A model generated the notes under the pieces. That model saw only the letters and a list, made by a program, of their open reading frames with translations, was not told the DNA's origin and searched no databases. From an uncultured SAR86 cluster bacterium (GTDB taxonomy: Bacteria > Pseudomonadota > Gammaproteobacteria > Magnimaribacterales > Magnimaribacteraceae): a stretch of DNA of 51,705 nucleotides. Of this stretch, positions 25,882 through 43,335 are shown piece by piece. The first letter of the stretch is position 1, and each line of letters opens with the position of its first letter. The stretch covers positions 1 to 51,705 of the forward strand of contig CACLEI010000008.1 of NCBI GenBank assembly GCA_902605935.1, read 5' to 3'. A program made the translations under genes and the position numbers.

Positions 25882-26799
25882 ATGCAAGAAGTACAACTTT
25901 CAGATTTAGTAAGTTTTTTAAGGACCAAGATTGTTCTTATTTTAGTTTTGACTTTTTTGTCCTCTTTAACTTCGGCTATAGTTTCTCTAAATCTGACTGA
26001 AATTTATGCATCTGATGCTATCCTAAAAATAACAGATATAAGCCCAGCATCCGGTGGAAAAACAGTTTCTTCTGGTGCACAAGGGCTTGCTTCACTAGCT
26101 GGAATCAACTTGGGAGGTGCTGTTGAATCCTCAGAGAAAACACCCTCCTATTTGATAGCTAAACTGAAATCTAGAACTTTTTTTAAGCAATTACTTACTT
26201 TTGAAGGCATCCTTGAAGGAATAGTTGCCGGAAACTCCTTTGACAGTAAAACTGGCAATTTAGTTTACGATGAAAATAAATATGACGCAGAATCGAAGAA
26301 ATGGATCAGAAAGATAAGTGGCTCCATGAAATTGATTCCGAGCAGTCAAGAGGCCCACAAAATCTTCCTCAAACAATTAGTTGCAGATTTTGATAAGAAA
26401 ACTGGCTTTATTACTGTTATATATGAGCATCCTTCTCCCTATTTTGCACAAAAAATGCTGAAGTTAATGGTTAAAGAGGTAAATAGATTACAAAAGAACC
26501 AAGATTTAATTCAGTATGAAAAAGAAATGCAGTATCTTTTGGAACAGAACGCTTCAAATAATATAGTTTTTCTAGAAAAATCTATTTCTTTAGCTGTAAT
26601 GAATCTAATACAAGAACAATCTCTTGCTAAGGCAAAAGATGATTATCTGGTCGAATATATAGACGAGCCGCACGCACCAGAATCAAGGATATTTCCTAGG
26701 AGAACACAAATTGTTTTAATCACTGCATTCCTTTCATTTATTATTCTTATTTTTTCTTTCACCTACTATCATTCTTATTTAAACAAACAAAATAGCTAA
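25882..26799 (+). CDS. wzz: Wzz-like polysaccharide chain-length regulator
   Basis: Inner-membrane co-polymerase controlling the modal length of surface polysaccharide. A transmembrane helix at about residues 15-36 is followed by a long periplasmic region. A second helix lies at about 277-298, preceded by the proline-containing PHAPESRIFPRR segment typical of Wzz. Length of 305 residues is normal. A TATAAT at 25862-25867 lies just upstream but has no clear -35. The stop overlaps the next gene as TAATG. Presence of Wzz fits the Wzy-like polymerase at the right edge. Confidence 0.85.
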   Translation: MQEVQLSDLVSFLRTKIVLILVLTFLSSLTSAIVSLNLTEIYASDAILKITDISPASGGKTVSSGAQGLASLAGINLGGAVESSEKTPSYLIAKLKSRTFFKQLLTFEGILEGIVAGNSFDSKTGNLVYDENKYDAESKKWIRKISGSMKLIPSSQEAHKIFLKQLVADFDKKTGFITVIYEHPSPYFAQKMLKLMVKEVNRLQKNQDLIQYEKEMQYLLEQNASNNIVFLEKSISLAVMNLIQEQSLAKAKDDYLVEYIDEPHAPESRIFPRRTQIVLITAFLSFIILIFSFTYYHSYLNKQNS

Positions 26800-27338
26800 T
26801 GGATTTTTTTACAAAATATTTTGATGAAATTCATCATCATACTAAAGATATAGATCATAATTTATTGATTGAATGTAATACCTTAATAAATAAGTTAAAA
26901 ACTAATAGAGGTAAAATAATTCTTGTTGGGAATGGAGGAAGCGCTGCAATGGCAAGTCATGTTGCTGTAGATTTCACAAAAGCAGCAAAGGTAAGAGCTA
27001 TAAACTTTAATGAAGCCGACTTGATCACATGTTTTGGTAATGATTATGGTTACGAAAATTGGGTTACGGAAGCAATAAGGGCATATTCGGATGATAATGA
27101 TCTGATCATTTTGATAAGCAGCAGTGGCCAATCCGAAAATATTATCAATGCTGCAAAATTTTCAAAAGAAAAAAATCTAGATTTAATAACTCTTTCGGGC
27201 TTTAAATCTTCTAATCCGCTGAGAGAAATTGGAGATGTAAATCTTTGGATTAATAGCGATAACTACAATTATGTTGAGATGAGCCATCATATTTGGCTTG
27301 TTGCATTATGTGATTTTGTAATAGCTTCGAATCAATAG
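26799..27338 (+). CDS. SIS-domain sugar isomerase, GmhA-like but atypical
   Basis: A 179-residue SIS protein with VGNGGSAAMASHVAVDFT near residues 43-60. Aligned by eye to GmhA, the catalytic Glu is Asp58, and the Gln-x7-His pair of the C-terminal helix is absent: MSHHIWLVA has Met161 and Ala169 at those places. It therefore resembles the phosphoheptose isomerases found in capsule clusters but should not be assumed to use the GmhA mechanism. Its position before a guanylyltransferase-like gene recalls the GDP-heptose pathway (gmhA-hddC); no hddA or gmhB is seen. Confidence 0.7.
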   Translation: MDFFTKYFDEIHHHTKDIDHNLLIECNTLINKLKTNRGKIILVGNGGSAAMASHVAVDFTKAAKVRAINFNEADLITCFGNDYGYENWVTEAIRAYSDDNDLIILISSSGQSENIINAAKFSKEKNLDLITLSGFKSSNPLREIGDVNLWINSDNYNYVEMSHHIWLVALCDFVIASNQ

Positions 27339-27342
27339 TTAC

Positions 27343-28125
27343 TTGAAAGCTTTATTACTATCTGGGGGTTACGGGAATCGGTTGAGTCCACTTACAGACG
27401 TTCTGCCTAAATGTTTAATGCCAATTCGCTCTAAACCTCTACTGGAAATTTGGATAGATCAGCTTCTAGAACTAGGGGTAGAGCAAATTTTGGTAAATAC
27501 TCATTATCTATCAGAACAAGTAATTGAATTTCTCGGAAGAAAAAAGTTTAAGGATAAAGTTCACTGGGTTTATGAAAAAAAGTTACTAGGAACTGCAGGT
27601 ACTTTGATTGAGAACATTGAATTTTTTGGCGATTCTGATGTGTTCCTGGCTCATGCGGACAATTTTTGCACAGCAAAATTACAAGACTTTTACCAGGCTC
27701 ATATTAATAGGCCCGAATGTTGTGTCATGACCATGATGAGTTTCCAAACCAGTAATCCAAAATCTTGCGGTATTTTAGAACTTGAGAATAATATCTTGGT
27801 AAATTTCTATGAAAAAGTAGAAAACCCTCCCTCGAATTGTGCAAATGGTGCAGTTTATCTCTTAAGTAGTGATCTTTTGTCATGGCTAAAAAAAGAGGAA
27901 AACATTACAGATTTCAGTATAGAGGTGATTCCTAAGCTACTTAATAAGATTCAAGTCTGGGAAAATACAAATGATCATATTGATATTGGAACTATAAATA
28001 ATCTCCTTTCTACTCAAAATATAGCAGTAGAATCTCATAAGCATGACATGAGTTTTGATGAATGGGAAAAATCATATAAAGATCACAAAATTCACGCTTT
28101 AATAAAAGAGCTTCAAAATGATTAA
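27343..28125 (+). CDS. Sugar-1-phosphate nucleotidyltransferase, HddC/PtmE-like
   Basis: Makes an NDP-sugar from a sugar-1-phosphate. The N-terminal signature LSGGYGNRLSPLTDVLPKCL (residues 6-25), with Gly-rich loop, Arg13 and Lys23, is diagnostic of this superfamily. The base may be GTP, because such short proteins next to SIS genes are often HddC (D-glycero-D-manno-heptose-1-phosphate guanylyltransferase) or PtmE-like, but sequence does not settle it. The start is TTG at 27343, five bases after the SIS stop. Length of 260 residues fits a single catalytic domain. It overlaps the next gene by eight bases. Confidence 0.8.
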   Translation: MKALLLSGGYGNRLSPLTDVLPKCLMPIRSKPLLEIWIDQLLELGVEQILVNTHYLSEQVIEFLGRKKFKDKVHWVYEKKLLGTAGTLIENIEFFGDSDVFLAHADNFCTAKLQDFYQAHINRPECCVMTMMSFQTSNPKSCGILELENNILVNFYEKVENPPSNCANGAVYLLSSDLLSWLKKEENITDFSIEVIPKLLNKIQVWENTNDHIDIGTINNLLSTQNIAVESHKHDMSFDEWEKSYKDHKIHALIKELQND

Positions 28126-29119
28126 AGATAATAGATTTTTAGTTATAGGCTCTAACTCTTTTACTGGCTCAAACTTTATTGCTCGTTTAATTAGCTCAAG
28201 TTACAAATGCATAGGAATCAGCAGATCCCAAGAGCTTGAGGATCCTTTTTTACCTTATAAATGGACACAAGCTTACAGGGAAAGCTTCAAGTTTTATCAA
28301 CTTGACCTGAACAAGGATCAGGATCAAGTTACTTCACTAATTAAAGAGGAAGAAATTTCTCATATAGTTAATTTTGCAGCACAAAGTATGGTTGGTCAAA
28401 GTTGGGATTCCCCTGAAGATTGGTATAAAACTAATGTAGTTTCTATTTCTAAATTCGTAAATAAAATAAGAGATATAGAATCTATTAAAAATTTTGTTAG
28501 TGTTACAACTCCTGAAGTCTATGGATCAACAGATGGTTGGGTTAAAGAAAATTCTGATTTCAAGCCATCAACACCATATGCCATCTCTCGGGCAGCCCAG
28601 GATATGCACTTAAGAGCATGCTTTGAAAATTTTAAATTTCCAGTAACTTTCACAAGGGCTGCAAATGTATATGGCCCAGGACAAAGTCTCTATAGAATCA
28701 TACCAAGAACACTTATTGAAGCTTTGACTGATGGTAACTTAATACTTGATGGAGGGGGAAAATCGGAAAGATCATTTATACATATTGATGATGTTTGTGA
28801 TGCTACTTTGAAAATTTGTCTCAAAGGCGAATTAGGTTCCACTTACCACATATCCACTGATCAATCTATACAGATAATTGATTTAGTTAATTTAATAGCT
28901 AAAATTTGTAATAAAGATTTAGAGGATTTTGTTTCCTTTGGTCCAGAAAGACCTGGAAAGGATTCTGCCTATCTTTTAGATTCCCAAAAATTGAGAAATG
29001 AACTATCGTGGACGGATGAAATAACCATTGAGCGAGGATTAACTGATACCCTTGAATGGATGGAAAAAAATATAGATTTCCTCAAAACTTGTAAAAGAGA
29101 TTACATACATAAGAAATGA
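28118..29119 (+). CDS. NDP-sugar 4,6-dehydratase-like extended SDR with YxxxR
   Basis: Extended short-chain dehydrogenase resembling GDP-mannose/dTDP-glucose 4,6-dehydratases: NAD-binding GSNSFTGSNF (residues 11-20), NFAAQS, the VTTPEVYGS active-site strand (129-137, with Thr and Glu as in dehydratases) and RAANVYGPGQ. The catalytic Tyr154-x3-Lys motif reads YAISR, with Arg158 encoded by CGG at 28589-28591. In most members that Lys is essential, so activity may be altered or the substrate unusual. The gene overlaps both neighbours (8 and 4 bases). Confidence 0.75.
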   Translation: MIKDNRFLVIGSNSFTGSNFIARLISSSYKCIGISRSQELEDPFLPYKWTQAYRESFKFYQLDLNKDQDQVTSLIKEEEISHIVNFAAQSMVGQSWDSPEDWYKTNVVSISKFVNKIRDIESIKNFVSVTTPEVYGSTDGWVKENSDFKPSTPYAISRAAQDMHLRACFENFKFPVTFTRAANVYGPGQSLYRIIPRTLIEALTDGNLILDGGGKSERSFIHIDDVCDATLKICLKGELGSTYHISTDQSIQIIDLVNLIAKICNKDLEDFVSFGPERPGKDSAYLLDSQKLRNELSWTDEITIERGLTDTLEWMEKNIDFLKTCKRDYIHKK

Positions 29120-30072
29120 GCAGAATATTAGTAACCGGTGGTTGTGGATTTGTTGGAAGTTCTCTTGTTAATCATTTACTTGAAAGTGGTCATAAAATCA
29201 TCGTTGTTGATACAGAATGGTTTGGAAATTATTTAAAAAGTCATGAAAACTTAACCTGCTTGAAACAAGATGTCAGAGATGTAGATACCATACCATTTGA
29301 GGGCATTGAGAGCATAATCCACTTAGCAAATATAGCTAATGACCCTGGTGTAGAGTTGAATCCCACTCTGTCTTGGGAAGTAAATGTTTTAGCTACTCAG
29401 CAACTCGCAAATAAAGCCAGATTATACGGAGTAAAACAATTTATATATGCTAGCAGCGGCAGTGTTTATGGAGTAAAGGAGGAAGAGAATGTGACAGAAG
29501 ACCTAGAGCTAGTTCCAATTTCTGTTTATAACAAAACAAAGATGGTAGCTGAACGAGTATTATTAAGCTATGAAGATGATTTTAAAGTTCATTGCGTAAG
29601 ACCAGCAACTGTGTGTGGATGGTCCCCTAGAATGAGACTAGATGTAAGTGTCAATATGTTTACTTGGCAAGCCTTACGAAATAAAGAAATGACGGTTTTC
29701 GGAGGAAATCAAGTGCGACCTAATATTCACATAGATGATATGGTGAATGTCTATGACCATTTTTTAACAAATCCCCATATTAAATCTGGTTGTTATAACG
29801 CAGGTTTTGAAAATATTTCTATCTTGGAAATTGCTGAAATGATAAAGAAAAAGATGCAAGGAACTAAAATTACAATTACTGCAAGTAATGATCCAAGGTC
29901 TTATCGCCAAAATTCCGATAAACTTTTACAAACCGGCTTTAAACAAAAATATTCTGTTGAAAACGCCATAGATGACATTATCCAAATATTTGAGGATGGA
30001 AAACTGGACGAAGGTGATAATTGTTTTACTGTAAAATGGATGAAGCACCTTAATTTAAATATAAAAATCTGA
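29116..30072 (+). CDS. NAD-dependent nucleotide-sugar epimerase/dehydratase
   Basis: Extended SDR with GGCGFVG (residues 8-14), an ASSGSVYG active-site strand (112-119) and a complete Tyr138-x3-Lys142 (YNKTK). The later RPNIHIDDM motif is typical of epimerases of the RmlB/GalE group. Length of 318 residues is normal. The reaction and sugar are not readable. It overlaps the previous dehydratase-like gene by four bases, so the two probably act on the same NDP-sugar; an intact partner may compensate for the YxxxR of its neighbour, but that is inference. Confidence 0.8.
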   Translation: MSRILVTGGCGFVGSSLVNHLLESGHKIIVVDTEWFGNYLKSHENLTCLKQDVRDVDTIPFEGIESIIHLANIANDPGVELNPTLSWEVNVLATQQLANKARLYGVKQFIYASSGSVYGVKEEENVTEDLELVPISVYNKTKMVAERVLLSYEDDFKVHCVRPATVCGWSPRMRLDVSVNMFTWQALRNKEMTVFGGNQVRPNIHIDDMVNVYDHFLTNPHIKSGCYNAGFENISILEIAEMIKKKMQGTKITITASNDPRSYRQNSDKLLQTGFKQKYSVENAIDDIIQIFEDGKLDEGDNCFTVKWMKHLNLNIKI

Positions 30073-30079
30073 CCACAAA

Positions 30080-31396
30080 ATGGAATTGCTAGAAAAGATT
30101 AGAAAAGAAAAGGCTACAATAGCGATTATTGGTCTAGGCTATGTAGGACTACCTTTATCAATAGCTTTTTTGAATAAAAATTTCAAAGTTATTGGCCTTG
30201 AATTGGATCAAACTAAAATTGATACTCTCAAAAAGGGGGAGTCCTATTTAAATCATATACCTTCAGAAGAAATATCTTCATATGTAAGTAAAAAAAAATT
30301 CATAGTTTCAAAGAATTTCAAGAATATTACTAAAGCTGATGTTGTCATAATATGTGTCCCCACTCCTCTAAATAAGTTCAGGGAGCCTGATCTGGGGCCC
30401 GTATTGAGTTCAGCTTCAAAAATTCAAAAATTTTTAAAAAAAGGTCAGTTAATTATATTAGAATCAAGCACCTATCCAGGTACTACTGACGATGTGCTGA
30501 CAAAGGAATTAGAGAAATCTAATCTTAAAGCTAATGAAGAATTTTTCTTAGCTTATTCTCCTGAAAGGGAAGATCCTGGTAACAAAAAATTTTCTACTTC
30601 AACTATTCCCAAGATTGTCGGTGCTGATACGTTTTTTTCAAGAAAGCTTGCTTCTGAATTATATAAAAAAGTCATATCGGATGTTGTGACAGTATCAAGC
30701 TCACGTACAGCTGAAGCTACAAAGTTAACTGAGAATATATTTCGAAGCGTAAACATAGCTCTAGTCAATGAATTGAAAACAATTTATGACGTTATGGAAA
30801 TTGATATTTGGGAGGTTATTGAAGCAGCGGCCACAAAGCCTTTTGGATATATGCCTTTCTACCCTGGCCCGGGTTTGGGCGGACACTGTATACCCATCGA
30901 TCCATTTTATCTTACCTATAAAGCACGAGAGTTTGAAGTTCCCACAAAATTTATAGAATTGGCAGGAGAAATTAATACTAGTATGCCTCACTTTGTTCTT
31001 AAGAAGGTTATTGATAGTCTTAGTCTCGTATCAGGAAAACCAATCAGAGGGGCAAAAATACTTATAATTGGTATGGCCTATAAGAATGATATTGCAGACT
31101 TGAGAGAAAGTCCTTCATTGACGCTAGCAAAACTCTTAAAACAAAATAAAGCAAAAGTTAGCTATCATGATAACTTCATTCCTGTTCTTCCGTCTCTTGA
31201 GGGATTTTCTGAACTAGCTGGAATGAAAAGTATTTCTTTGCAAAAAAATGTAATCGATAAATTTGATGCGATATTAGTCATTACTAACCATAGTTATATT
31301 GACTTTGACTTAATAGCTCAAAACGCTAAATTAATTATCGATACGAGAAATGCATTAAAAAATTTAAAATCAAATGCAACTATAATTAAGGCTTAG
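30080..31396 (+). CDS. UDP-sugar 6-dehydrogenase, WbpA/UDP-GlcNAc dehydrogenase-like
   Basis: Oxidises a UDP-hexose(amine) to the uronic acid with two NAD+. The N-terminal Rossmann motif GLGYVGLP is at residues 18-25. The catalytic Cys270 lies in GGHCIPIDP, preceded by the PGPG loop, and the C-terminal domain contains IGMAYKNDIADLRESP. The GGHCIPIDP form, rather than the GGxCxPKD form of UDP-glucose dehydrogenase, points to UDP-GlcNAc or UDP-GalNAc as substrate. Length of 438 residues is normal. It suggests an acidic amino-sugar in the glycan. Confidence 0.88.
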   Translation: MELLEKIRKEKATIAIIGLGYVGLPLSIAFLNKNFKVIGLELDQTKIDTLKKGESYLNHIPSEEISSYVSKKKFIVSKNFKNITKADVVIICVPTPLNKFREPDLGPVLSSASKIQKFLKKGQLIILESSTYPGTTDDVLTKELEKSNLKANEEFFLAYSPEREDPGNKKFSTSTIPKIVGADTFFSRKLASELYKKVISDVVTVSSSRTAEATKLTENIFRSVNIALVNELKTIYDVMEIDIWEVIEAAATKPFGYMPFYPGPGLGGHCIPIDPFYLTYKAREFEVPTKFIELAGEINTSMPHFVLKKVIDSLSLVSGKPIRGAKILIIGMAYKNDIADLRESPSLTLAKLLKQNKAKVSYHDNFIPVLPSLEGFSELAGMKSISLQKNVIDKFDAILVITNHSYIDFDLIAQNAKLIIDTRNALKNLKSNATIIKA

Positions 31397-31400
31397 CGAA

Positions 31401-32099
31401 ATGGGCCTTAGGAAATTAAAAGTTTTAGCACTTATCCCTGCAAGAAGCGGCTCCAAAGGTATTAAAAATAAAAATATGTATCCCATTAACAGAAGATATC
31501 TAATCGACTTCACTTTAGAAGCTGCAATATCGTCATCTTTTGTTGATCATGTCTATGTCTCTAGTGATTCAAAAAAAATACTGGATCATGCTGAAGAAAA
31601 TTTGGCTTTACCTGTTCAAAGACCAAGCAAGTTTTCTAAAGATACATCTACTGCCACTGAAGTAATCTATCATTTTTACGATTTCTTAATATCTAATGAT
31701 TTAATTGAAAGAAGAGAAGATTTTTATCTAAGTTATCTTCAGCCAACATCTCCATTGAGAAATTCTAAAATCCTTGATGAAAGTTTCTCTGCTCTTGAGA
31801 AAAGCAACATGGATTGCTTAATAAGTCTTGTTAAAGATAAGCAGACTCCGTTTAAATCCTTTCTCATAAAAGATGGTTTAGTTCAGTCTTTGTTTAAAGA
31901 GTCTGATACAAATAAAAATAGACAAGACTTACAGCCAACATATAGAGCCAATGGCGCAATTTACACATTCTTGATTTCCGAATTTCTTCGAAACAAGGGG
32001 TTTCCCTCTAATGCTTCAATACCTTTTATAATGTCAGAAGAGGAAAGTTTAGATATTGATAGTTATGAGGATTTAGATACCTTAAAATCAAGACTATAA
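31401..32099 (+). CDS. neuA: CMP-nonulosonate cytidylyltransferase (NeuA/LegF-like)
   Basis: Activates a sialic-acid-like sugar with CTP. The N-terminal LIPARSGSKGI motif (residues 11-21) is the family signature, YLQPTSPLRN is the conserved central strand, and RANGAIY follows. Length of 232 residues is normal. It is directly followed by neuB and neuC homologues, which strongly supports a nonulosonic acid role. Whether the sugar is Neu5Ac, legionaminic or pseudaminic acid cannot be read; no aminotransferase or N-acetyltransferase for the legionaminic or pseudaminic routes is visible here. Confidence 0.85.
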   Translation: MGLRKLKVLALIPARSGSKGIKNKNMYPINRRYLIDFTLEAAISSSFVDHVYVSSDSKKILDHAEENLALPVQRPSKFSKDTSTATEVIYHFYDFLISNDLIERREDFYLSYLQPTSPLRNSKILDESFSALEKSNMDCLISLVKDKQTPFKSFLIKDGLVQSLFKESDTNKNRQDLQPTYRANGAIYTFLISEFLRNKGFPSNASIPFIMSEEESLDIDSYEDLDTLKSRL

Positions 32100-32119
32100 A
32101 ATAATTTATTTGGAGAGCT

Positions 32120-33166
32120 ATGAAAGGAAATCCTCACATAACTATAGAAAACAGAAGAGTTGGATTTGATGAGAATCCTCTCGTGATAGCAGAAATAGGC
32201 ATAAACCATAATGGATCTTTGGAAGTTGCAAAAAAGATGGCTAAATCTGCTTTGGATGCAGGTGTTGATGTTGTTAAGCATCAAACTCATATTGTAGATG
32301 ATGAGATGTCCAAAGAGGCAGACAGTCAGAAAATTGACTATATTGGAAAAACCATATATCAGCTGATGAAAGAATGTGCTCTTTCTAGAGACGATGAATA
32401 TGCATTGATGAGATATGTGCAGGATCTCGGAGGAATTTTTATGAGTACACCATTTTCCAGAGCAGCAGCAGATAGGCTAATGGAATTTGAAGTGCCTGCA
32501 TTTAAGATAGGCTCTGGTGAGTGTAATAATTATCCCCTACTTGAACATATTGCAATGTTTGGCAAGCCTATAATTCTTAGTACTGGGATGAATACTTTAG
32601 AATCTGTTTCTATCGCAATTGATATTTTTGAGAGTAATGGAGTTGATTGTGCTATTTTACATACTACCAATATCTATCCAACTCCTGTCAATTTAGTCAG
32701 ACTCGGTGCAATGGAAGAACTAAAAAATTCTTTTCCTAGTTGTGTCTATGGTCTATCGGACCATACTACATCTAATCATGCATGCTTTGGAGCTGTAGCG
32801 CTTGGGGCAAGCATATTAGAAAGACATTTCACTGATAGTATGGATCGAGAAGGTCCTGACATAATAAACTCTATGGATCCTCTCGCTGCTAAGGAATTAG
32901 TTGAGGGTTCAAGGATATTAAAAGAAGCTAGAGGTGGAACAAAAGGTCCAATAGATGAAGAAAAACCTGTCATTGATTTTGCCTATGCTTCTGTTGTTAC
33001 GATAGCAGATATAGTCGCCGGTGAGACTTTTTCAAAAGAAAATATATGGGTGAAAAGGCCGGGAACAGGTCCGATATTTGCCAAAGACTATAATGATATT
33101 ATCGGAAAAAAAGCTTCAGCAAATATACCGTCTGATACCCATTTAAAACTCTCAGATATTGACTAA
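32120..33166 (+). CDS. neuB: Nonulosonic acid synthase (NeuB/LegI-like)
   Basis: Condenses phosphoenolpyruvate with an N-acetylated hexosamine (ManNAc or its 6-deoxy diamino analogue). The TIM-barrel domain begins with AEIGINHNGS and has VKHQTH, FKIGSGE and LSDHT segments typical of NeuB. A C-terminal SAF (antifreeze-like) domain occupies about residues 285-348, opening with ENIWVKRPGTG. Length of 348 residues is normal. A GGAG ribosome site precedes the ATG. It sits between neuA and neuC homologues. Confidence 0.9.
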   Translation: MKGNPHITIENRRVGFDENPLVIAEIGINHNGSLEVAKKMAKSALDAGVDVVKHQTHIVDDEMSKEADSQKIDYIGKTIYQLMKECALSRDDEYALMRYVQDLGGIFMSTPFSRAAADRLMEFEVPAFKIGSGECNNYPLLEHIAMFGKPIILSTGMNTLESVSIAIDIFESNGVDCAILHTTNIYPTPVNLVRLGAMEELKNSFPSCVYGLSDHTTSNHACFGAVALGASILERHFTDSMDREGPDIINSMDPLAAKELVEGSRILKEARGGTKGPIDEEKPVIDFAYASVVTIADIVAGETFSKENIWVKRPGTGPIFAKDYNDIIGKKASANIPSDTHLKLSDID

Positions 33167-33171
33167 CTTCA

Positions 33172-34323
33172 ATGAAAAGGAAGATAGCCTGTATAACTGG
33201 CACAAGAGCAGATTACCCCAGAGTAAGAAGCGTTCTAAAAGAAATTCAAACCAGAGATAACTTAAGTCTAGATATTATTGTTACCGGTTCTCATTTACTT
33301 GATGAATATGGATTTTCTGCGCAAGAAATTTTGGATGATGGCTTTGAAATTGCAAAAAAAGTTGAGATGTTTGTTGGTGACTTTGATACTCCACTTGGAA
33401 TGGCTGAAGCCTCTTCTAGATGCACTGCTGGGATTGCTAGAGCCCTGAGCGAACTAAATCCTGATCTTGTATTGATTACTGTAGATAGAGTTGAAACACT
33501 TGCAAGTATAACAGCTGCAAGTTTAATGAATTTTCCAATAGCTCATATACAAGGTGGAGAAGTTACGGGGACTATAGATGAATCCATCAGGCATGCTGTA
33601 ACTAAATTAAGTCATATCCATTTTCCTGCTACTGCTGATGCTGCAAAGAGAATTGTAATGATGGGTGAAGACGAGAAATATGTATTCAATACAGGTTGTC
33701 CATACATCGATGAAATCATTGATCTGGTGCCAGTAGATATTAATATTCTTGCTAATCGTTATAATTTTGATCCAAAAAAGGAGGTTATAATTTTTACCCA
33801 ACACTCTGTGACCACCGAACATGATGAGTCTCTGGGACAAGTAGAAGAAACTATTTCTGCTCTAGAAAACTTTCAGGATTATCAAATAATAAGTCTCTTT
33901 TCGAATACAGATGCGGGGGGCAAGAAAATTATTGAAAGAATTGGGAAGCAGAAAAATTTTATCAAGATTCCTAACATTGTAAGTAAAGATTTTTTAAGTT
34001 TGATGAAGCACAGTTCACTAATGATTGGAAATTCCTCAGCGGGCATCAGGGAAGCACCTAGTTTTAATTTACCAGTTATAAACATTGGCTCAAGGCAAAA
34101 TGGAAGGTTAAGAGCTAAAAACGTAATAGACGTACCTCATTCAGAAGTGGAGATAACAAAAGCTATAAAATTTTGTCTTCATAATGAGGATTTTAAAGAA
34201 TCCTTAGTCAATATGGAAAATCCTTATGGTAACGGAACTGCATCTACTCAAATAGTGGATATTTTGGAAACTATAGTTCTAGATCGCAAACTTATTCAAA
34301 AAGAAATTTGTTATGAAATATAA
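33172..34323 (+). CDS. neuC: Hydrolysing UDP-N-acetylglucosamine 2-epimerase (NeuC/LegG-like)
   Basis: Releases UDP and inverts C2 to give ManNAc or its diamino analogue, the substrate for NeuB. ITGTRADYPRV near residues 8-18 is the family N-terminus. The IQGGEVTGTIDESIRHA segment and the FTQHSVT and GNSSAGIREAPSF motifs define the GT-B-like epimerase fold. Length of 383 residues is normal. The order A-B-C completes a minimal CMP-sialic-acid-type pathway. The stop overlaps the next epimerase by 11 bases. Confidence 0.88.
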   Translation: MKRKIACITGTRADYPRVRSVLKEIQTRDNLSLDIIVTGSHLLDEYGFSAQEILDDGFEIAKKVEMFVGDFDTPLGMAEASSRCTAGIARALSELNPDLVLITVDRVETLASITAASLMNFPIAHIQGGEVTGTIDESIRHAVTKLSHIHFPATADAAKRIVMMGEDEKYVFNTGCPYIDEIIDLVPVDINILANRYNFDPKKEVIIFTQHSVTTEHDESLGQVEETISALENFQDYQIISLFSNTDAGGKKIIERIGKQKNFIKIPNIVSKDFLSLMKHSSLMIGNSSAGIREAPSFNLPVINIGSRQNGRLRAKNVIDVPHSEVEITKAIKFCLHNEDFKESLVNMENPYGNGTASTQIVDILETIVLDRKLIQKEICYEI

Positions 34324-35317
34324 ATTCAAAAAAGTTTTAATCACTGGCGGTGCTGGGACAATAGGAATTTATCTAACTAATGAATTAATTTTAAGAGGCG
34401 TTGATGTGGTTGTTTTTGACTTGCATGAACAAATTGAAAGAGTAGATAAATTTATAAATCCAAAAGCAACTAAATTTTATGGATCTATTTTAGATATTTC
34501 AGCTTTGCGAGATGCTTTAATAGGATGTGATGGAGTAGTCCACCTTGCAGCTCATCTAGGAGTACAAAGAACTGAGAGAAATAGATTACGTTGTCTTGAT
34601 ATTAATATTACAGGTACTAACAAGGTTTTAGATGCAAGCATTATGAATGGTCAAATAAAAAAATTTGTATTTGCCTCTTCATCAGAAGTTTATGGAGAGC
34701 CGCTTGAAAATCCAATTACAGAGAGTGCTATTACCCAAGGTAAAACGGTTTATGCAGTATCTAAACTCGCAGGAGAGGAGTTAGTAAAAGCCTATGGTAT
34801 TGAGTTTCCCGAGATGAAATATTCAATTTTAAGATACTTTAATGCTTATGGCCCTCATCAAGTAAGCCAATTTGTAATAACAAAATTTATTCATAGAGTG
34901 GCTGAGAACAAAAATCCAGTAATATTTGGTGATGGAACACAAAAACGTAGTTATAACTTTGTCTCAGATACCGCAAGAGGAACAGCTGATGCTCTATTTT
35001 CTTCTAAAACAGATAAAATGATTATGAATTTGGGTAATAGTAAAGAGCCAATATCCCTTTTAAATTTAGCAGAAAAGATCATCAAAATAGCTGGAAAAGA
35101 AGGTGATTTATGTGTTGAGGTGCAGAATACCTTTGAGAATACCGACAGAGACGAAAATAGAGAAATTTTTCAAAGGTATTGTGATACTTCAATTGCAAAA
35201 GACCTCATTGCATACGAATCATTAGTTACTTTAGATACAGGAATAAAGACTATTTTCGACTTGGGACACTTCCAGTCAACATGGCTAAGCTCAGAAAAGG
35301 AGTATTTGGTCGACTAA
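34313..35317 (+). CDS. NAD-dependent nucleotide-sugar epimerase/dehydratase
   Basis: Extended SDR with GGAGTIG near residues 12-18, HLAAHLGVQ, the FASSSEVYG strand and an intact YAVSK Tyr-x3-Lys. RYFNAYGPHQ is typical of UDP-sugar epimerases such as WbpP/GalE and of UDP-GlcNAc-modifying enzymes in nonulosonic clusters. Length of 334 residues is normal. The specific substrate is not readable. It overlaps neuC by 11 bases and precedes the E1-alpha gene by 41 bases, so it may belong functionally to either module. Confidence 0.8.
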   Translation: MKYKFKKVLITGGAGTIGIYLTNELILRGVDVVVFDLHEQIERVDKFINPKATKFYGSILDISALRDALIGCDGVVHLAAHLGVQRTERNRLRCLDINITGTNKVLDASIMNGQIKKFVFASSSEVYGEPLENPITESAITQGKTVYAVSKLAGEELVKAYGIEFPEMKYSILRYFNAYGPHQVSQFVITKFIHRVAENKNPVIFGDGTQKRSYNFVSDTARGTADALFSSKTDKMIMNLGNSKEPISLLNLAEKIIKIAGKEGDLCVEVQNTFENTDRDENREIFQRYCDTSIAKDLIAYESLVTLDTGIKTIFDLGHFQSTWLSSEKEYLVD

Positions 35318-35358: not shown

Positions 35359-36294
35359 ATGTCCTTATTTGAAATGCAAAAAAGAATGCTCAAGATTAGA
35401 TTTGTTGAGGAATCAATTGCTGAAAGATACTCTGAAGGAAAAATGAGATGTCCAACTCATTTATCTATAGGGCAGGAAGCAATTGCTGTCGGCGTTTGTG
35501 CAAACTTAAATAAAGATGATTTAGTGCTAAGTACGCATAGGGCTCATGCGCATTATTTAGCAAAGGGAGGTGATCTGAAGAAGATGATTGCCGAGATTTA
35601 TGGGAAAGTAACAGGATGTTCCAAAGGTATGGGTGGTTCCATGCATTTGATAGATAAATCAGTAGGATTTATGGGCAGCACTGCGATAGTTGGAAATACT
35701 ATTCCGGTGGCTGTGGGAATGGCAAAAGGCTTAAAGCTTAGAAATAAAGATGCTATTTCGTGCGTGTTCTTTGGTGATGGTGCGACTGAAGAAGGGGTAT
35801 TTTTTGAATCCTTAAATTTCGCAATTATCCAAAATCTTCCCGTAATATTTGTTTGCGAGAATAATCTATATTCAGTCTATTCAGGCTTGGAAGTAAGACA
35901 ACCAAAAGGGAGAAAAATCTATGAAATGGCAAGATCTATGGGCATTGAAGCAAATCATGGAAATGGTAATGATGTTGTAGAGGTTTACGAAAAGATGTTA
36001 AAAGCAAAAGACAATATTTCTAAGGATAAGGGTCCTCAGTTTCTAGAATTTGATACCTATAGATGGAGAGAACACTGCGGCCCCAATTATGATAATGATC
36101 TTGGCTACAGGGATGAATCAGAGTTTTTGAAGTGGAGAGAAAAAGACCCACTTAAAAATGTTTTGGACTCTTCAGAATTTAAAAGCTATATAGATTCCTT
36201 AAAGGATGATATCTGCGAAGCACATTTGTTTGCAGAAAACTCAAAATATCCTGAATATGAAGAATTTTTAGAAATTTCAGGAATTAAGAAATGA
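35359..36294 (+). CDS. TPP-dependent E1 alpha subunit in a glycan cluster
   Basis: Homologue of the alpha subunit of pyruvate/branched-chain/acetoin dehydrogenase E1. The thiamine-diphosphate motif runs from GDG (residues 139-141) to NN (168-169), and STHRAHAHYLAKGG and GSMHLID are typical. I chose ATG at 35359, giving 311 residues; an upstream in-frame ATG at 35281 overlaps the previous gene and adds a non-homologous leader. No E2 lipoyl transferase or E3 is nearby, so it is unlikely to serve a classical dehydrogenase complex. A ketol transfer onto a sugar or its precursor is a plausible but untested role. The beta subunit follows with a four-base overlap. Confidence 0.82.
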   Translation: MSLFEMQKRMLKIRFVEESIAERYSEGKMRCPTHLSIGQEAIAVGVCANLNKDDLVLSTHRAHAHYLAKGGDLKKMIAEIYGKVTGCSKGMGGSMHLIDKSVGFMGSTAIVGNTIPVAVGMAKGLKLRNKDAISCVFFGDGATEEGVFFESLNFAIIQNLPVIFVCENNLYSVYSGLEVRQPKGRKIYEMARSMGIEANHGNGNDVVEVYEKMLKAKDNISKDKGPQFLEFDTYRWREHCGPNYDNDLGYRDESEFLKWREKDPLKNVLDSSEFKSYIDSLKDDICEAHLFAENSKYPEYEEFLEISGIKK

Positions 36295-37343
36295 GAAAGA
36301 TTTCTTTTGCGCAGGCAGTAAACGAAGCAATTGATATGGCTATGTCCATTTCAGACGAAGTGATAACTTTTGGTTTAGGGGTTCCAGATCCTAAGGGAGT
36401 TTTTTCAACTACCTTAGGATTACAAGATAAGTATGGAAATGAGAGAGTTTTTGATATGCCTACCTCAGAGAATGCCATGACAGGTATAGGGATTGGCTCA
36501 TCTATTGTTGGCTTGAGACCTATAATGGTACACCAGAGGGTAGATTTTTTTCTCCTAGCTTTAGATCAACTTATAAATAATGCAGCCAAATGGAACTTTA
36601 TGTTTGGGGGAGATAATAATATTCCTATAACAATTAGGCTTATAGTCGGCCATGGTTGGGGTCAAGGGCCAACGCATTCACAAAATCTACAATCAATCTT
36701 TTCTCATATACCTGGCCTTAAGGTTGTGATGCCAACTACTGCTTATGATGCAAAAGGTCTCTTATTAGAAAGTATCTTTTGCGATGATCCAGTTCTTTTC
36801 CTTGAACATAGATGGTTACATGGTACGGAGGGTGAAGTCCCTGAAAAAGACTATCGAATAGCAATTGGTAGCTCTAAAGTAATTAAACCTGGTAAAGATA
36901 TTACCTTAGTATCTTTGTCTTACATGACAATAGAAGCCATGAGAGCTGTGGAGGAACTAGAAAAAGAAGATATATCCTGTGAATTGATAGATCTGCGCTC
37001 AAGCAGCCCTCTTGATTGGGTCACCATAAGTAAATCTATTAAGAAAACAGGCAGATTATTAGTTATAGATACTGCAAATGAAAGTTTTTCTATATCAAGT
37101 GAAATAATAGCTAAAGCTAGTATGGAGATATTTACAAGTTTCAAATCACCTCCGCAGAGGCTGGCTTTAATTGATGCACCATCTCCTACAAGCTTCGGTC
37201 TAACTTCTACTTATTACAATGGAGCAGAAGAAGTATTTGCAAAAGTATTAGAAATTTTCGATCAACCTTCAAAACCCAATGATAATTTAAAGAGTGATCA
37301 TTCTCATGATATTCCTGGAGACTGGTTTAAGGGGCCTTTCTAA
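36291..37343 (+). CDS. TPP-dependent E1 beta (transketolase-like) subunit
   Basis: Partner of the preceding alpha subunit. The N-terminal pyrimidine-binding domain includes FDMPTSENAMTGIGIG, where the conserved Glu that activates thiamine is expected, and the C-terminal transketolase domain carries GKDITLVSLSYM and ELIDLRSSSPLDW. Length of 350 residues is slightly longer than the usual ~325; the extra C-terminal tail (DHSHDIPGDWFKGPF) is not part of the common fold and could be a docking element. It overlaps alpha by four bases and lies 13 bases from the kinase fusion, so it is part of one module. Confidence 0.83.
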   Translation: MRKISFAQAVNEAIDMAMSISDEVITFGLGVPDPKGVFSTTLGLQDKYGNERVFDMPTSENAMTGIGIGSSIVGLRPIMVHQRVDFFLLALDQLINNAAKWNFMFGGDNNIPITIRLIVGHGWGQGPTHSQNLQSIFSHIPGLKVVMPTTAYDAKGLLLESIFCDDPVLFLEHRWLHGTEGEVPEKDYRIAIGSSKVIKPGKDITLVSLSYMTIEAMRAVEELEKEDISCELIDLRSSSPLDWVTISKSIKKTGRLLVIDTANESFSISSEIIAKASMEIFTSFKSPPQRLALIDAPSPTSFGLTSTYYNGAEEVFAKVLEIFDQPSKPNDNLKSDHSHDIPGDWFKGPF

Positions 37344-37356
37344 AAAAAATTACTAT

Positions 37357-38811
37357 ATGAATAAGAATATTATCTTTGTATTTGGAAATTTCAATATCCT
37401 TCACCCAGGTCATCTTAGATTATTCCAATTTATAAAATCATTAAAAAAAGAAGTTTACATAGGACTCATTCCCGATAAAGACGTTGAAGAAAGTGTATTC
37501 ATAAATGAGATTTTAAGGAAAGAAAATTTGGACTCAAATAGTCTAGTAGATAAATGTTTAATTATTGAAAATTCTATTGAAGAAACAATTATGGAATATA
37601 AGCCATATGCGGTAGTGAAAGGGAAAGAATATGAAAACGCATTCAATCCTGAATTAAAAATATTAGAATCTTATGGTGGAAAATTAATATTTTCTTCTGG
37701 AGATGTTGTTTTTTCTTCAAAAGCTCTATTAAAAAATGAATTGGGACCCATTAACAATGATCTTATTTCTGTACCAATGGATTTTTTAAAAAGACATAAA
37801 ATAAATTTTGACAACATCACAAATATTATTGAAGGTTTTTCAAAAATTAAAGTTCTTGTAATTGGAGATTTAATTTTAGATAAGTACATTACCTGCGAAC
37901 CTTTGGGTATGTCACAAGAAGATCCAACAATAGTTGTTAAGCCAATTGATTCAAAAGTTTTTGTAGGAGGAGCAGGTATTGTGGCGCTTCACGGAAGTGC
38001 TTTGGGCTCTCATGTTTGGTTTTCTTCTGTTTCAGGAATAGACGAGCAAAGGGGTTTTATAGATCAGGAGTTGCGAGAAATTGAAACTAAAATTTTTAAA
38101 GATCCCAATCGTCCAACGATTTTGAAAGAGAGGTACCGCAGTAAGGGAAAAACTCTTCTTAGAGTTAGCAGATTATCCGAAAATTCTATTGATGCCTCTC
38201 TTCAGAAAAAACTCTTAAATTATGTCAGACCTATCATTAAGAAAGTAGATATGATTCTTTTTTCCGATTTTAATTATGGTTTTTTGCCGAATGAAGTCGT
38301 AAATGAAGTAATCAAATTAGGCAAAAAACATAAAAAAATTATGATTGCTGACAGTCAATCATCTTCACAGATTGGTGATATATCAAGATTTAATAATATG
38401 GATTTAATATGTGCGACTGAAAGAGAAGCAAGAATAAGTGTCTCTGATAAGGAAATTGGGCTAGTGCAACTTGCTGAGATGTTGCAAAAGAAATCTTGTG
38501 CTAGCAACATTTTCTTAAAGCTAGGAGAAGAAGGAACCTTTTTTCACGTGTTGGATGAGTTAAGACAAGAGTTTATTACTGATAAGATAAACGCGTTGAG
38601 TAATGTTGCAATTGACACAGCTGGGGCAGGTGACTCAATGCTAATAGGTTCATCTTTATCCTTAGCTACCGGTGCATCAGTCTGGGAAAGTGCTTACATA
38701 GGAGCATTGTGCGCAGCAATTCAAGTAAACAGAATAGGCAATATACCGCTTCAACAGAAATATCTATTAAATTTGATAAAAGATCAAAAAAATTTTTATG
38801 AAAACAATTGA
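37357..38811 (+). CDS. Nucleotidyltransferase-PfkB kinase fusion (reverse of HldE order)
   Basis: Two domains: residues ~1-140 are a cytidylyltransferase-like nucleotidyltransferase with HPGH at 16-19. Residues ~165-484 are a PfkB/ribokinase-family sugar kinase with VIGDLILD, the FVGGAG loop and the catalytic DTAGAGD at 420-426. The E. coli heptose enzyme HldE has the kinase first and the nucleotidyltransferase second; here the order is reversed. I chose ATG at 37357 because an upstream ATG at 37294 lies inside the E1-beta gene and adds an unrelated leader. The likely job is phosphorylation of a sugar phosphate and its activation to an NDP-sugar, possibly a heptose. Confidence 0.8.
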   Translation: MNKNIIFVFGNFNILHPGHLRLFQFIKSLKKEVYIGLIPDKDVEESVFINEILRKENLDSNSLVDKCLIIENSIEETIMEYKPYAVVKGKEYENAFNPELKILESYGGKLIFSSGDVVFSSKALLKNELGPINNDLISVPMDFLKRHKINFDNITNIIEGFSKIKVLVIGDLILDKYITCEPLGMSQEDPTIVVKPIDSKVFVGGAGIVALHGSALGSHVWFSSVSGIDEQRGFIDQELREIETKIFKDPNRPTILKERYRSKGKTLLRVSRLSENSIDASLQKKLLNYVRPIIKKVDMILFSDFNYGFLPNEVVNEVIKLGKKHKKIMIADSQSSSQIGDISRFNNMDLICATEREARISVSDKEIGLVQLAEMLQKKSCASNIFLKLGEEGTFFHVLDELRQEFITDKINALSNVAIDTAGAGDSMLIGSSLSLATGASVWESAYIGALCAAIQVNRIGNIPLQQKYLLNLIKDQKNFYENN

Positions 38812-40264
38812 AGTTTCGACTCCCAATAAGAAGATACTCCTAATAGGTGGGAAAAGTGATATTGGCTCGAACTTTTTCAAGAAATTTTCAAAGACCTTAG
38901 ATATAGATCTCACTTCAAAAGAAAAGGAAAAAGGTTATGTTTTTGTTGATTTGGAAGATGTTTTAACTTTTAAAAATTTAGATTTTTCCAGATATGACAG
39001 CGCTATCTTCTTAGCTGGAATAACTAATCTGCAATATATCAATTCAAATAAGTCAAAGACTCGTTTGATAAATCAAAAAAACACATCTTTGCTAATCGAT
39101 AAGTTACTAAGAAAGAAGATTTTCACTCTCTTTTTATCTTCTAATCAGGTTTTTTCAGGGAAAAAAGACTTTTACTCCTGCGAGGATAAAAAAGACCCTC
39201 TTTCACTTTATGGATCTTATAAATCTGAAGTAGAAGATTATATTCTTGGACATAAAGAAAAGGATCATGCTGCCATCTTAAGGTTAACTAAGGTTATTTC
39301 TAATCAAACAAGGTTTATAAAAAATTGGAAAAAGGAATATAAAACCAACCAACAAGTGAGTGTATTTTCAAATCGATTTATCTCTCCAATTGAACTAGAA
39401 GAAGTTCTAGATGCAATGCTTTTAATCATCGAAAATAGAAAAAAAGGAATTTATCAGCTAGGTGGCAAGGAATATTTAACTTATTTGCAATATGCGAAGG
39501 AATATTTTCCTCAAATAAAAGATACTAATTTTAAGTTAATACCTTCTAGTGAGAATGATGATAGGCTGTATCCTCCATCTTCTTTGAACACAAACCTACC
39601 AACTAAAGAGTTACAGTATGATGATTTCAGAAATCAGCCCGATATAAGCTTGGGTTTAATGACAAAATATGCATATTGGAACGATCCAAAAAGGATGGGT
39701 TTCACTTTCTCTAGATATAAATTTGTATCGAAAATGTTTGATGGATTTGATTCTGTGTTGGAAATTGGATGTGCAGATGCATTTTGTTCAACCTTAGTAA
39801 TGGAATCAGTTAAGAAACTTGAAGCATGCGATTTTGATAAAATGTTTATCAAGGAAAATGAGAAAAATCACCCTCATAGGTCTAGAATAAAATTCTATTA
39901 TCAAGATTTAGTAAAAAATTCTCTTCCAAAAAAATATAATGGCATCTATGCCCTTGATGTATTGGAGCATATTGAGAAACATGAAGAACAAAAGTTTTTA
40001 ACTAACCTAAGTAGGGGTTTAAAGGCGAATGGTACATGCATTATAGGCATGCCAAGCCTAGAATCTCAAAAATTTGCAAGTGAAATTTCTAAATTAGGTC
40101 ATGTAAATTGTAAGTCTGGTGAAGAACTTAAATCTACGATGAAAAATTATTTTAGGAATGTATTTATATTTTCTATGAATGATGAAACGTTACACACAGG
40201 TTTTTTCCCCATGAGCCACTATCTTCTTGCTCTTTGTATAAATCCTAGGATTCAAAAAAATTGA
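38798..40264 (+). CDS. RmlD-like reductase fused to a SAM methyltransferase
   Basis: Two domains: residues ~10-280 form an SDR resembling dTDP-4-dehydrorhamnose reductase, with GGKSDIGS at 17-24, FLSSNQVFSG and Tyr138-x3-Lys142. Residues ~300-488 form a class I methyltransferase with SAM motif VLEIGCAD at 320-327 and ALDVLEHIE. The combined length of 488 residues is continuous in one frame without any stop. It could reduce a keto-sugar and methylate it in one protein; the position of the methyl group is unknown. It overlaps the kinase fusion by 14 bases and is the last gene of the E1 module. Confidence 0.75.
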   Translation: MKTIEVSTPNKKILLIGGKSDIGSNFFKKFSKTLDIDLTSKEKEKGYVFVDLEDVLTFKNLDFSRYDSAIFLAGITNLQYINSNKSKTRLINQKNTSLLIDKLLRKKIFTLFLSSNQVFSGKKDFYSCEDKKDPLSLYGSYKSEVEDYILGHKEKDHAAILRLTKVISNQTRFIKNWKKEYKTNQQVSVFSNRFISPIELEEVLDAMLLIIENRKKGIYQLGGKEYLTYLQYAKEYFPQIKDTNFKLIPSSENDDRLYPPSSLNTNLPTKELQYDDFRNQPDISLGLMTKYAYWNDPKRMGFTFSRYKFVSKMFDGFDSVLEIGCADAFCSTLVMESVKKLEACDFDKMFIKENEKNHPHRSRIKFYYQDLVKNSLPKKYNGIYALDVLEHIEKHEEQKFLTNLSRGLKANGTCIIGMPSLESQKFASEISKLGHVNCKSGEELKSTMKNYFRNVFIFSMNDETLHTGFFPMSHYLLALCINPRIQKN

Positions 40265-41546: not shown

Positions 41547-42587
41547 TTAATGTTCCATTCTTATTATCGGTCTTAGGACCTTGCCTAGTGAAAGATCTCT
41601 TACAGCCCGATTAATTTGATTTAATTTGTACGGCTCTGACAAAAAGTTGTTTAGATCGAAATTTCCACATATTTTTTTTGTCATTTTGGGTATATCCTTA
41701 TCTGGATTAACCGCCCCCCCCCAAGTACCCTCTAATTTTTTCCCCGATATTAATTCATGAGGATAAATTGATATTTTTTGGTCATCTGGAGGATGAGAAG
41801 CAAATACAACTTTACCACTACTATTGATTAGTGAAAATGCAGTTTCGATCGTAGATACTTGGCCAGCAGATTCAAAACAAAAATCGGCACCTTCTGGGTA
41901 TATATTTTTAAATTTTTTAGAAAAGTTATTATCTTTAAGATTAATGGTATTCTCAACTCCCCAAGAACTTACCAAATCTAGCTTTTTCTTCGTAATATCT
42001 ACAGCCACTATCTTGTTGATATCTAATGAGAGTAACGCAGCAATTGCAGACAAACCTACACCTCCTAAGCCAATAACCAAGACCTTACTATCTTTATTCA
42101 TTGTTGACTCATTCAGAACCATACCTGCCCCTGTAGGAAGTGCGCATCCAAAAAGGACAGCTTCTTTAAGATTAAGGACTTTAGGTTTTTTTATAATTCT
42201 ATTTTCTGAAATAACCGAATAGTTGCTAAATGTTGTTATCTTACCTGAGTTAATAACTTGATCATTCTCTACCTCATCATATTTTATTTCTTCAGATTCT
42301 AGTCCACTACTTTTTATCCAAGATAGCACTACTTCATCTCCTTTCTTTACTTTCTTTACTCCCCTTCCGACATCTATCACCTCTCCGGAACCTTCATGGC
42401 CTAATAAATGTGGTAGCCACTTGTCATGTCCCCTGTGTCCTTGTATCTCCATTAACTGGCTACGGCATATGCCGCTATATGCAATTTTTACTAGCACTTG
42501 TCCAGCAAGGAGCTTTCTAGAATTTAATTTCTTTATTTCTAGAGGTTCATTCAGTTTTGTAAGAACTGCAGCTTGTATTTCTTTCAT
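41547..42587 (-). CDS. Zinc-type alcohol dehydrogenase (MDR) family protein
   Basis: Medium-chain dehydrogenase/reductase with the catalytic zinc positions Cys40 (SGICRS) and His in LLGHEGSG, and the Rossmann motif GLGGVGLSA near 175-183. The structural-zinc four-Cys lobe seen in classic liver-type enzymes is not apparent. The C-terminal segment LSLGKVLRPII is typical. It overlaps the upstream methyltransferase as TAATG, so the two are a leftward operon in an otherwise rightward cluster. The substrate may be a sugar or lipid-linked alcohol; nothing in the sequence fixes it. Confidence 0.8.
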   Translation of the reverse strand: MKEIQAAVLTKLNEPLEIKKLNSRKLLAGQVLVKIAYSGICRSQLMEIQGHRGHDKWLPHLLGHEGSGEVIDVGRGVKKVKKGDEVVLSWIKSSGLESEEIKYDEVENDQVINSGKITTFSNYSVISENRIIKKPKVLNLKEAVLFGCALPTGAGMVLNESTMNKDSKVLVIGLGGVGLSAIAALLSLDINKIVAVDITKKKLDLVSSWGVENTINLKDNNFSKKFKNIYPEGADFCFESAGQVSTIETAFSLINSSGKVVFASHPPDDQKISIYPHELISGKKLEGTWGGAVNPDKDIPKMTKKICGNFDLNNFLSEPYKLNQINRAVRDLSLGKVLRPIIRMEH

Positions 42588-43246
42588 TATTCGGCAAAAA
42601 ACCAGTAATAATCACCTTTAAAGTTTACTTCTTCAAAAAGGTCGATCCATTCATCACAGCTCATATAAGTTAGCGCCGTCAAATTCCATTTCAGCATTGA
42701 ATTTTTTCCTTTTTCGTCTCTCCATGCATCATTCATAACAAAAGAATCACGACTTGAAACCCTATTAATCTCTTTAAATGCTTGCTTACAATCTATCAAA
42801 GGTAAATTATGTAAGGTATTTATAGCAATTACTAAATCAAAACTGTCATCTTCAAACGGGAGATTATTTGCAGAAGCTAGATATATATTTTTTTTCATTG
42901 AGTCTATAGCATTTTTTTTTGCATACGAAGATATGTCCACACCCTTGATTTCGGCTTCTGGTATTATCAACGAGAGATCATGCATCATAAATCCCTTCGC
43001 ACATCCTACGTCAAGGATTTTACTTGAATTATCTAAATTATAGTATTCTGCAATAAATTTAACAGTTTCAGTCCAAAATTTTGGATTATAGCTATATCCT
43101 CCATAGCCTGTTAAACGGTTTCCATCAAAATATTCTTCATCAAATTTCCTTGCAACTGCTCTATCTTCCTCAGAGATTAAATTCCCTCTTTCTTCTATGG
43201 GTCTTTTTGAAGAAGGGTAATACTTTAATAGATTTATTTCTTTCAT
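42587..43246 (-). CDS. Class I SAM-dependent methyltransferase
   Basis: A methyltransferase of about 219 residues. The N-terminus MKEINLLKYYPSSKR, followed by FDGNRLTGYGGYSYNPKFW, matches a methyltransferase family common in surface-polysaccharide clusters. SAM motif I is ILDVGCAKG and motif IV is DLVIAINTLHNL. I prefer the ATG at 43246; an in-frame ATG at 43276 would add ten hydrophobic residues without a ribosome site. It precedes the dehydrogenase with a TAATG overlap. It diverges from the flippase gene across about 200 bases. Confidence 0.75.
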   Translation of the reverse strand: MKEINLLKYYPSSKRPIEERGNLISEEDRAVARKFDEEYFDGNRLTGYGGYSYNPKFWTETVKFIAEYYNLDNSSKILDVGCAKGFMMHDLSLIIPEAEIKGVDISSYAKKNAIDSMKKNIYLASANNLPFEDDSFDLVIAINTLHNLPLIDCKQAFKEINRVSSRDSFVMNDAWRDEKGKNSMLKWNLTALTYMSCDEWIDLFEEVNFKGDYYWFFAE

Positions 43247-43335
43247 GGTAATGTTGAAGTATTTGAATATAAGCAAAGAAAGTTTAACTTAAAATCGTCC
43301 TTAGTATAAATAAAATAAAAAGATATCACTCGGCA

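Follow-up and report, generated by a model that had tools for sequence, protein, structure and literature searches.

Pairs of enzymes resembling the α and β subunits of pyruvate dehydrogenase (PDH) E1 are described as placing two-carbon branches, derived from pyruvate, on the keto-sugars of antibiotics (PMC12247030). These α-KADH2 pairs are reported there from about 120 gene clusters, including those for aldgamycin, avilamycin (AviB1/AviB2), paulomycin, trioxacarcin and kibdelomycin (KbDH-α/β), with feeding and knock-out experiments for aldgamycin and in vitro carboligation by KbDH as evidence; in some cases the branch is then reduced or methylated (PMC12247030). AviB1/AviB2 have been proposed to carry out the branching in avilamycin with pyruvate as the donor (PMC4753412). 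The YerE-like lyases of yersiniose and erwiniose, found in O-antigen clusters, likewise use thiamine diphosphate (ThDP) and branch a keto-sugar of a surface polysaccharide (PMC12247030). Here, an E1 α/β pair is described from a surface-glycan cluster of an uncultured SAR86 cluster bacterium. It is encoded in a 51,705-nt stretch of contig CACLEI010000008.1, called the window, whose positions are used as coordinates throughout. The pair most likely works like the α-KADH2 branching enzymes, to which it was likened by architecture, context and published descriptions, not by their sequences. On balance, we favour a role as a stand-alone ThDP carboligase that would add an acetyl unit to a keto-sugar nucleotide, giving a C2-branched surface sugar.

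The window pair shares with α-KADH2 a two-subunit, PDH-E1-like architecture, the catalytic motifs of a ThDP enzyme and a place in a sugar-nucleotide pathway without E2 or E3. It differs in lying in a surface-glycan cluster, together with a SIS isomerase and a nucleotidyltransferase-kinase fusion. YerE-like lyases are single-chain proteins of the TPP_enzyme N/M/C type, whereas the window pair is a two-subunit E1 with E1_dh and Transket_pyr domains, an architecture of the PDH type and not of the transketolase type. The nearest solved structures of both subunits were PDH E1s, with E1β closest to PDH E1β 3duf_B, and E1α scored below both NCBIfam PDH-α cut-offs (276 versus 394 and 175 versus 411 bits). 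Open reading frames (ORFs) and Pfam domains bore out the four genes of the initial annotation at 35359–40264, namely E1α, E1β, a nucleotidyltransferase-PfkB fusion and an RmlD-like reductase fused to a methyltransferase, spaced by −4, 13 and −14 bases (Table 1). The longest ORF for E1α begins at 35281; alignments with close relatives set in near the ATG at 35359, where the start would be best placed.

Relatives of E1α were collected by scanning genome contigs with an alignment of five E1α proteins. At least 571 were confirmed and the best 80 were analysed, so that the counts below describe the closest relatives and not all 571. Their loci were represented by stretches of up to about 21 kb, of which 53/80 reached at least 15 kb. 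They spanned 26 named phyla, with two archaeal loci and two of no phylum, a number of phyla that binning errors may inflate as many of the loci come from metagenome bins. E1α was 49–62% identical in these relatives, and E1β accompanied it in 79/80 loci. In a congener (L036), E1α was 69% identical and a 161-residue piece of E1β 83% identical. These matches and the 80 relatives indicate that the pair is not a chance arrangement. The ThDP motif G[DE][GA]-X25-ENN was present in 73/80 E1α segments, while the catalytic Glu of the DxPxSE type was kept in 79/80 E1β segments and the HSQ motif in 75/80. Given this conservation, ThDP-dependent activity is to be expected of the pair.

Neighbouring genes in the 80 loci were counted with the window proteins as queries, accepting best matches above 60 bits. 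A GalE-like short-chain dehydrogenase/reductase (SDR) lay near E1 in 67/80 loci and an RmlB-like SDR in 57/80, counts that may include paralogues and to that extent weaken the case for sugar branching; those for the fusion (59/80), the SIS isomerase (45/80) and the methyltransferase of 42587–43276 (54/80) are cleaner. The methyltransferase was the closest partner of E1, at a median distance of 0.7 kb. An alcohol dehydrogenase was found near E1 in 34/80 loci and an HddC-like nucleotidyltransferase in 19/80. Loci centred on NeuB gave a match in only 5/114 genomes, too few for a control, so other glycan genes of the same window were used instead. These reached 14 (ABC), 10 (SDR334), 5 (NeuB), 4 each (UDPdh, NeuA), 2 each (CTPtr-cupin, GT04372) and 1 (NeuC) of the 80 loci, against 19–67 for the module genes. 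At least one core partner lay near E1 in 79/80 loci, the exception (L053) being a contig of 3.2 kb, and partners were nearly always on the strand of E1.

The conserved unit is therefore larger than 35359–40264 and also takes in 26799–30072 and 41547–43276. Six conserved partners lie outside the four genes of the initial annotation, which also do not hold together as a unit: within 6 kb, E1 and the fusion co-occurred in 46/80 loci, and only 4/80 also had a relative of either half of the RmlD-methyltransferase protein. Matches to this last protein were found in 17/80 loci, each covering one half or the other, which indicates that the halves are separate genes in related loci. The window contains all conserved partners, interrupted by a nonulosonic-acid cassette. 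This cassette and a UDP-sugar dehydrogenase, which together occupy 30080–35317, intervene between the 26799–30072 group and E1. The SDR of the cassette is LegB-like, and NeuC passes its NCBIfam cut-off (414 versus 236 bits) while the other members do not. The order NeuA-NeuB-NeuC-SDR-E1 recurs in the congener. Such a position directly behind the cassette, in two genomes, could mean that the pair is a carboligase for another acceptor, such as an intermediate on the way to nonulosonic acid or an acyl group unrelated to sugars, and a relative on Streptomyces griseofuscus plasmid pSGRIFU1 adjoins a condensation-domain gene. With NeuB near E1 in only 5/80 loci and sugar-nucleotide genes in 79/80, this seems rather improbable. 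The same count of NeuB led us to reject the cassette as a part of the module.

The initial annotation had described the pair as free of E2 and E3, and had named linked E2/E3 genes in relatives as an observation that would speak against its proposal. Searches with the E2 and E3 proteins of Priestia detected neither component in any of the 80 E1 loci. The pair thus differs from the E1 of PDH, acetoin and branched-chain dehydrogenases in having no linked lipoyl E2/E3, and also in a loop of E1α, which reads EHCGP in the window and in place of which E2-linked reference E1α proteins carry GHS or AHS. EHCG was kept in at least 77/80 relatives, and the EHCGP-type loop is three residues longer than the G/A-H-S type. 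Among 34 further loci, E2 lay beside E1 in nine, all with G-H loops, so that an EH loop and E2 never coincided; 19 loci with EH loops had no adjacent E2, which is weak evidence because these stretches reach only ~1.5 kb beyond the match. The loop of Streptomyces fungicidicus E1α is AHS. An E1α tree of 67 rows was built with the loop and everything after it removed, and with support from the Shimodaira–Hasegawa-like approximate likelihood ratio test (SH-aLRT) only. The window fell in a set of 16 rows, all EH, with 96% support, and PDH- and acetoin-type rows formed one group of 18 with 90% support. The EH label required 3 changes on the tree, compared with a mean of 18.4 when shuffled. The split is not clean, since L039, L142 and Solidesulfovibrio have G-H loops, with no E2 seen among the neighbouring genes of L039 and Solidesulfovibrio. 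Glycan-cluster pairs for which no E2 is annotated can likewise carry G-H loops (Solidesulfovibrio L161 and L039), and the loop was rejected as a perfect marker.

These data bear on whether the pair is an ordinary pyruvate or acetoin dehydrogenase E1, present in a glycan cluster by chance and served by E2/E3 encoded elsewhere. The similarity to PDH E1 at the family level would fit this. E2 (PF00198) was not found in the window's own genome, which is weak evidence and proves little as that genome is only 51% complete. The lack of E2/E3 in all 80 loci, the same sugar genes across 26 named phyla and the changed loop point the other way. So does the distribution in the window's order, where E1α had a match at 1e-60 or better in 4/101 genomes and in 0/39 good-quality ones, a patchiness that suggests an accessory and not a housekeeping gene. 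We thus regard a chance-placed dehydrogenase E1 as very improbable, and reject a housekeeping PDH on grounds of synteny, loop and patchy distribution; the pair most likely does not serve as part of a 2-oxoacid dehydrogenase complex. Favouring a carboligase are the core partners in 79/80 loci, their shared strand, E2/E3 in 0/80, the mutual exclusion of EH loop and E2, and the retained motifs.

From the observed gene content, motifs, loop, co-conservation and absence of E2/E3, we infer a donor, an acceptor, an order of steps and a product. The pair would decarboxylate pyruvate to the hydroxyethyl-ThDP carbanion, an acetyl equivalent, which would attack a keto-sugar nucleotide at its keto group and so leave a tertiary alcohol on a C2-branched sugar. 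The acceptor would be supplied by the GmhA-like isomerase, the PfkB kinase and a nucleotidyltransferase (the fusion domain or the separate one) as a nucleoside diphosphate (NDP)-sugar, probably heptose-derived, which the RmlB-like and GalE-like SDRs would oxidize and remodel. The acetyl group could become a hydroxyethyl branch through the alcohol dehydrogenase or an RmlD/SDR domain. S-adenosylmethionine (SAM) methyltransferases would methylate the sugar, and the finished sugar would enter the surface glycan. As first proposed, a two-carbon transfer leading to a branched sugar, with activation, reduction and methylation of that sugar, remains the best fit.

The partner enzymes were compared with their described counterparts. 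The fusion contains both domain families of HldE with intact catalytic motifs (HPGH and GAGD), but in the opposite order, CTP_transf_like then PfkB, and with scores far below the HldE cut-offs (172 versus 345 bits for the kinase, 42.5 versus 181.5 bits for the nucleotidyltransferase). Its kinase domain matched a heptose 7-phosphate kinase structure (4e84). The HddC-like protein scored higher with an archaeal GlmU-type model (116 bits) than with the HddC model (71). Among solved structures, the RmlB-like SDR was nearest to thymidine diphosphate (dTDP)-glucose 4,6-dehydratases. Canonical RmlB motifs are TDE and YxxxK, which hold the catalytic Asp and Lys; the window protein instead has TPE and YAISR and scores well below the 4,6-dehydratase cut-off (Table 1). 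Pro was found at this site in 50/56 relatives, and the motif pairs were PE/R in 25, PE/K in 18, AE/K in 4 and unread in 9. With proteins of Azospirillum oryzae and other module loci as extra queries, two types of the fusion could be told apart. Type I, in 42 loci, is frequently accompanied by SIS and two SDRs; type II, to which the window fusion belongs, occurs in 19 loci and frequently adjoins an alcohol dehydrogenase and an HddC-like gene.

Among the optional genes of the 80 loci, two DegT aminotransferases were found in 25 loci each, a YerE-like ThDP lyase in 19 and a split transketolase in 9. One or other of the last two occurred in 27/80 loci, both in one; they too are sugar-branching candidates and were counted in favour of the proposed role. 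The initial annotation had left room for chain extension as well as branching. In that case, the pair would act early, in the manner of a transketolase or 1-deoxyxylulose 5-phosphate synthase, extending an aldose phosphate by a two-carbon unit. The ketose phosphate so formed would pass through isomerization by SIS, phosphorylation and activation to become an NDP-octose-like sugar. SIS and the kinase fusion, which occur together in 39/80 loci, are indeed frequent partners, and split transketolases accompany the pair in 9/80. At two loci of the window's class (L025, L026), a split transketolase (Transketolase_N, Pfam) accompanies the fusion in place of the E1 pair, and L024 is similar in appearance. 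The pair is of the PDH type, however, the transketolases are additional to it, and by chemical reasoning a pyruvate donor would give a 1-deoxyketose, unusable by an aldose-ketose isomerase. Branching thus stood and chain extension became the less likely part, one to which we assign little probability. L037 (5905–7638) and related loci, 19/80 in total, carry both a YerE-like lyase and the E1 pair, two C–C ligases per sugar pathway.

Several points weigh against sugar branching by the E1 pair, besides possible paralogues among the SDRs. Lacking the catalytic Asp, and in the window also the Lys, the RmlB-like SDR is a doubtful catalyst of the textbook 4,6-dehydration that yields a 4-keto sugar; a keto group could instead be introduced by the alcohol dehydrogenase or the GalE-like SDR. 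Equivalog cut-offs are missed by a wide margin by the SIS, kinase, RmlB-like and nucleotidyltransferase sequences, making heptose a guess. In the tree, the PDH types share a group (97% SH-aLRT) with seven EH rows, among them two Streptomyces plasmid proteins, so that the EH loop does not mark one clean clade. Two Streptomyces plasmid relatives (50% identity, EHVGP) are in non-sugar or unannotated contexts. Finally, a 12-gene operon of Rhodopseudomonas (L101, L102, L113, L119), in the order FkbM, SIS, SDR, RmlB-like, methyltransferase, E1α, E1β, alcohol dehydrogenase, fusion, HddC-like, SDR, YerE-like, also ends in a gene of the type credited with branching in the literature. The O-antigen of R. 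palustris CGA009 contains a C4-branched, 3-O-methylated sugar (PMC9912281), and a review credits its branching to a putative YerE-like enzyme (PMC12247030). The terminal YerE-like gene of the operon is no worse a match for that assignment than E1 is.

E1α occurs in 10/16 Rhodopseudomonas genomes. That the genus carries the module and that CGA009 makes a C4-branched sugar were counted in favour of branching by the pair. The CGA009 sugar resembles the proposed product as a higher-carbon branched sugar, a link that rests on the genus, with the module read from other records. Bradyrhizose of photosynthetic Bradyrhizobium is alike in being a higher-carbon bicyclic O-antigen sugar. Its cluster in strain ORS285 is described with eleven genes, one of them a dTDP-glucose 4,6-dehydratase homologue whose mutant lacks O-antigen (PMC4743980). 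A link of the module to bradyrhizose is conjecture. More broadly, and doubtfully, one unnamed pathway, spread over 26 named phyla with archaea and environmental Chlamydiota among them, may use a PDH-E1-type carboligase to place a two-carbon branch on an activated heptose-type sugar. This would explain how higher-carbon branched surface sugars are made, for example the monosaccharide of the Rhodopseudomonas O-antigen and perhaps bradyrhizose. No published description of this gene set was found in literature searches covering few subscription journals. The earlier statement that no characterized pathway is known to have this exact composition needs a qualifier, as antibiotic clusters are described as encoding sugar-branching enzymes of the PDH-E1 kind (PMC12247030).

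Table 1. Position and characteristics of the module genes and neighbouring features in the window
Feature	Position	Strand	Remarks
E1α, ThDP-binding subunit, proposed carboligase α	35359..36294	+	E1_dh (Pfam) 194 bits; −4 overlap with E1β
E1α loop TYRWREHCGPNYDNDLGYR	36055..36111	+	residues 233–251 of 311-aa protein
E1β, proposed carboligase β	36291..37343	+	Transket_pyr 99 bits, Transketolase_C 94 bits (Pfam); gap of 13 to in-frame ATG of fusion
Nucleotidyltransferase-PfkB fusion (type II)	37357..38811	+	CTP_transf_like 29 bits, PfkB 77 bits (Pfam); −14 overlap with next gene
RmlD-like reductase fused to methyltransferase	38798..40264	+	RmlD_sub_bind 74 bits, Methyltransf_25 29 bits (Pfam)
SIS isomerase, GmhA-like	26799..27338	+	model score 85 bits versus cut-off 209; GmhA structures nearest
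NTP_transferase-family sugar-1-phosphate nucleotidyltransferase, labelled HddC-like	27343..28125	+	HddC model 71 bits (cut-off 300)
RmlB-like SDR	28118..29119	+	TPE for TDE, YxxxR for YxxxK; 205.7 bits versus equivalog cut-off 365.1
GalE-like SDR	29116..30072	+	motifs SSGSVYG and YNKTK
Zinc-type alcohol dehydrogenase	41547..42587	−	
Class I SAM methyltransferase	42587..43276	−	
NeuA-NeuB-NeuC-SDR nonulosonic-acid cassette	31401..35317	+	not counted in module

Further matches and loci were noted. E1α matches were found in 16/248 genomes of the family of Rhodopseudomonas, none of the 16 identified as Bradyrhizobium, and in 16/396 of Actinomycetota, among which no antibiotic-sugar cluster was identified. 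Phages gave a match in 2/50,697 records, to an acoA-like gene at 34.5%, and with the fusion as query no relative was found among viral contigs. Seven Chlamydiota loci (L062, L065, L079, L084, L087, L088, L100) share the order SDR, SDR, SIS, fusion, E1α, E1β, then methyltransferase, followed in most by an RmlB-like gene. On pSGRIFU1 (L120, 17989–20035), the E1 pair, with an α subunit at 50.7% and an EHVGP loop, lies beside the condensation-domain gene and regulators, not sugar genes; it is possibly a related carboligase with a non-sugar acceptor. A similar E1α occurs in S. albogriseolus pSALBX2 (L122), an unannotated record. A second, more distant type of E1 pair (41–44%) is carried on plasmids of Azospirillum and Solidesulfovibrio (L159, L160, L161), accompanied by a DegT aminotransferase and an oxidoreductase, with no annotated E2. 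In L028 (8083–16692), the module (SDR, SIS, fusion, E1 pair) adjoins two flgL-/flgK-like genes, judged by eye from their N-termini, and is perhaps a flagellin-glycosylation version. The window also contains, at 25079–25849, a CTP_transf_like domain fused to a cupin of the mannose-6-phosphate isomerase type.

Sugar branching by PDH-E1-like enzymes is known from natural-product clusters; what is proposed here is a surface-glycan counterpart with its own sugar-nucleotide kit. If surface glycans of bacteria and archaea are widely made with the same chemistry, many of the genes now bearing a dehydrogenase E1 annotation would be mis-described (at least 571 relatives, not all checked). The origin of C-branched O-antigen sugars would become testable through one gene pair. 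Such pairs would also be new ketone-accepting carboligases for the production of chiral tertiary alcohols.

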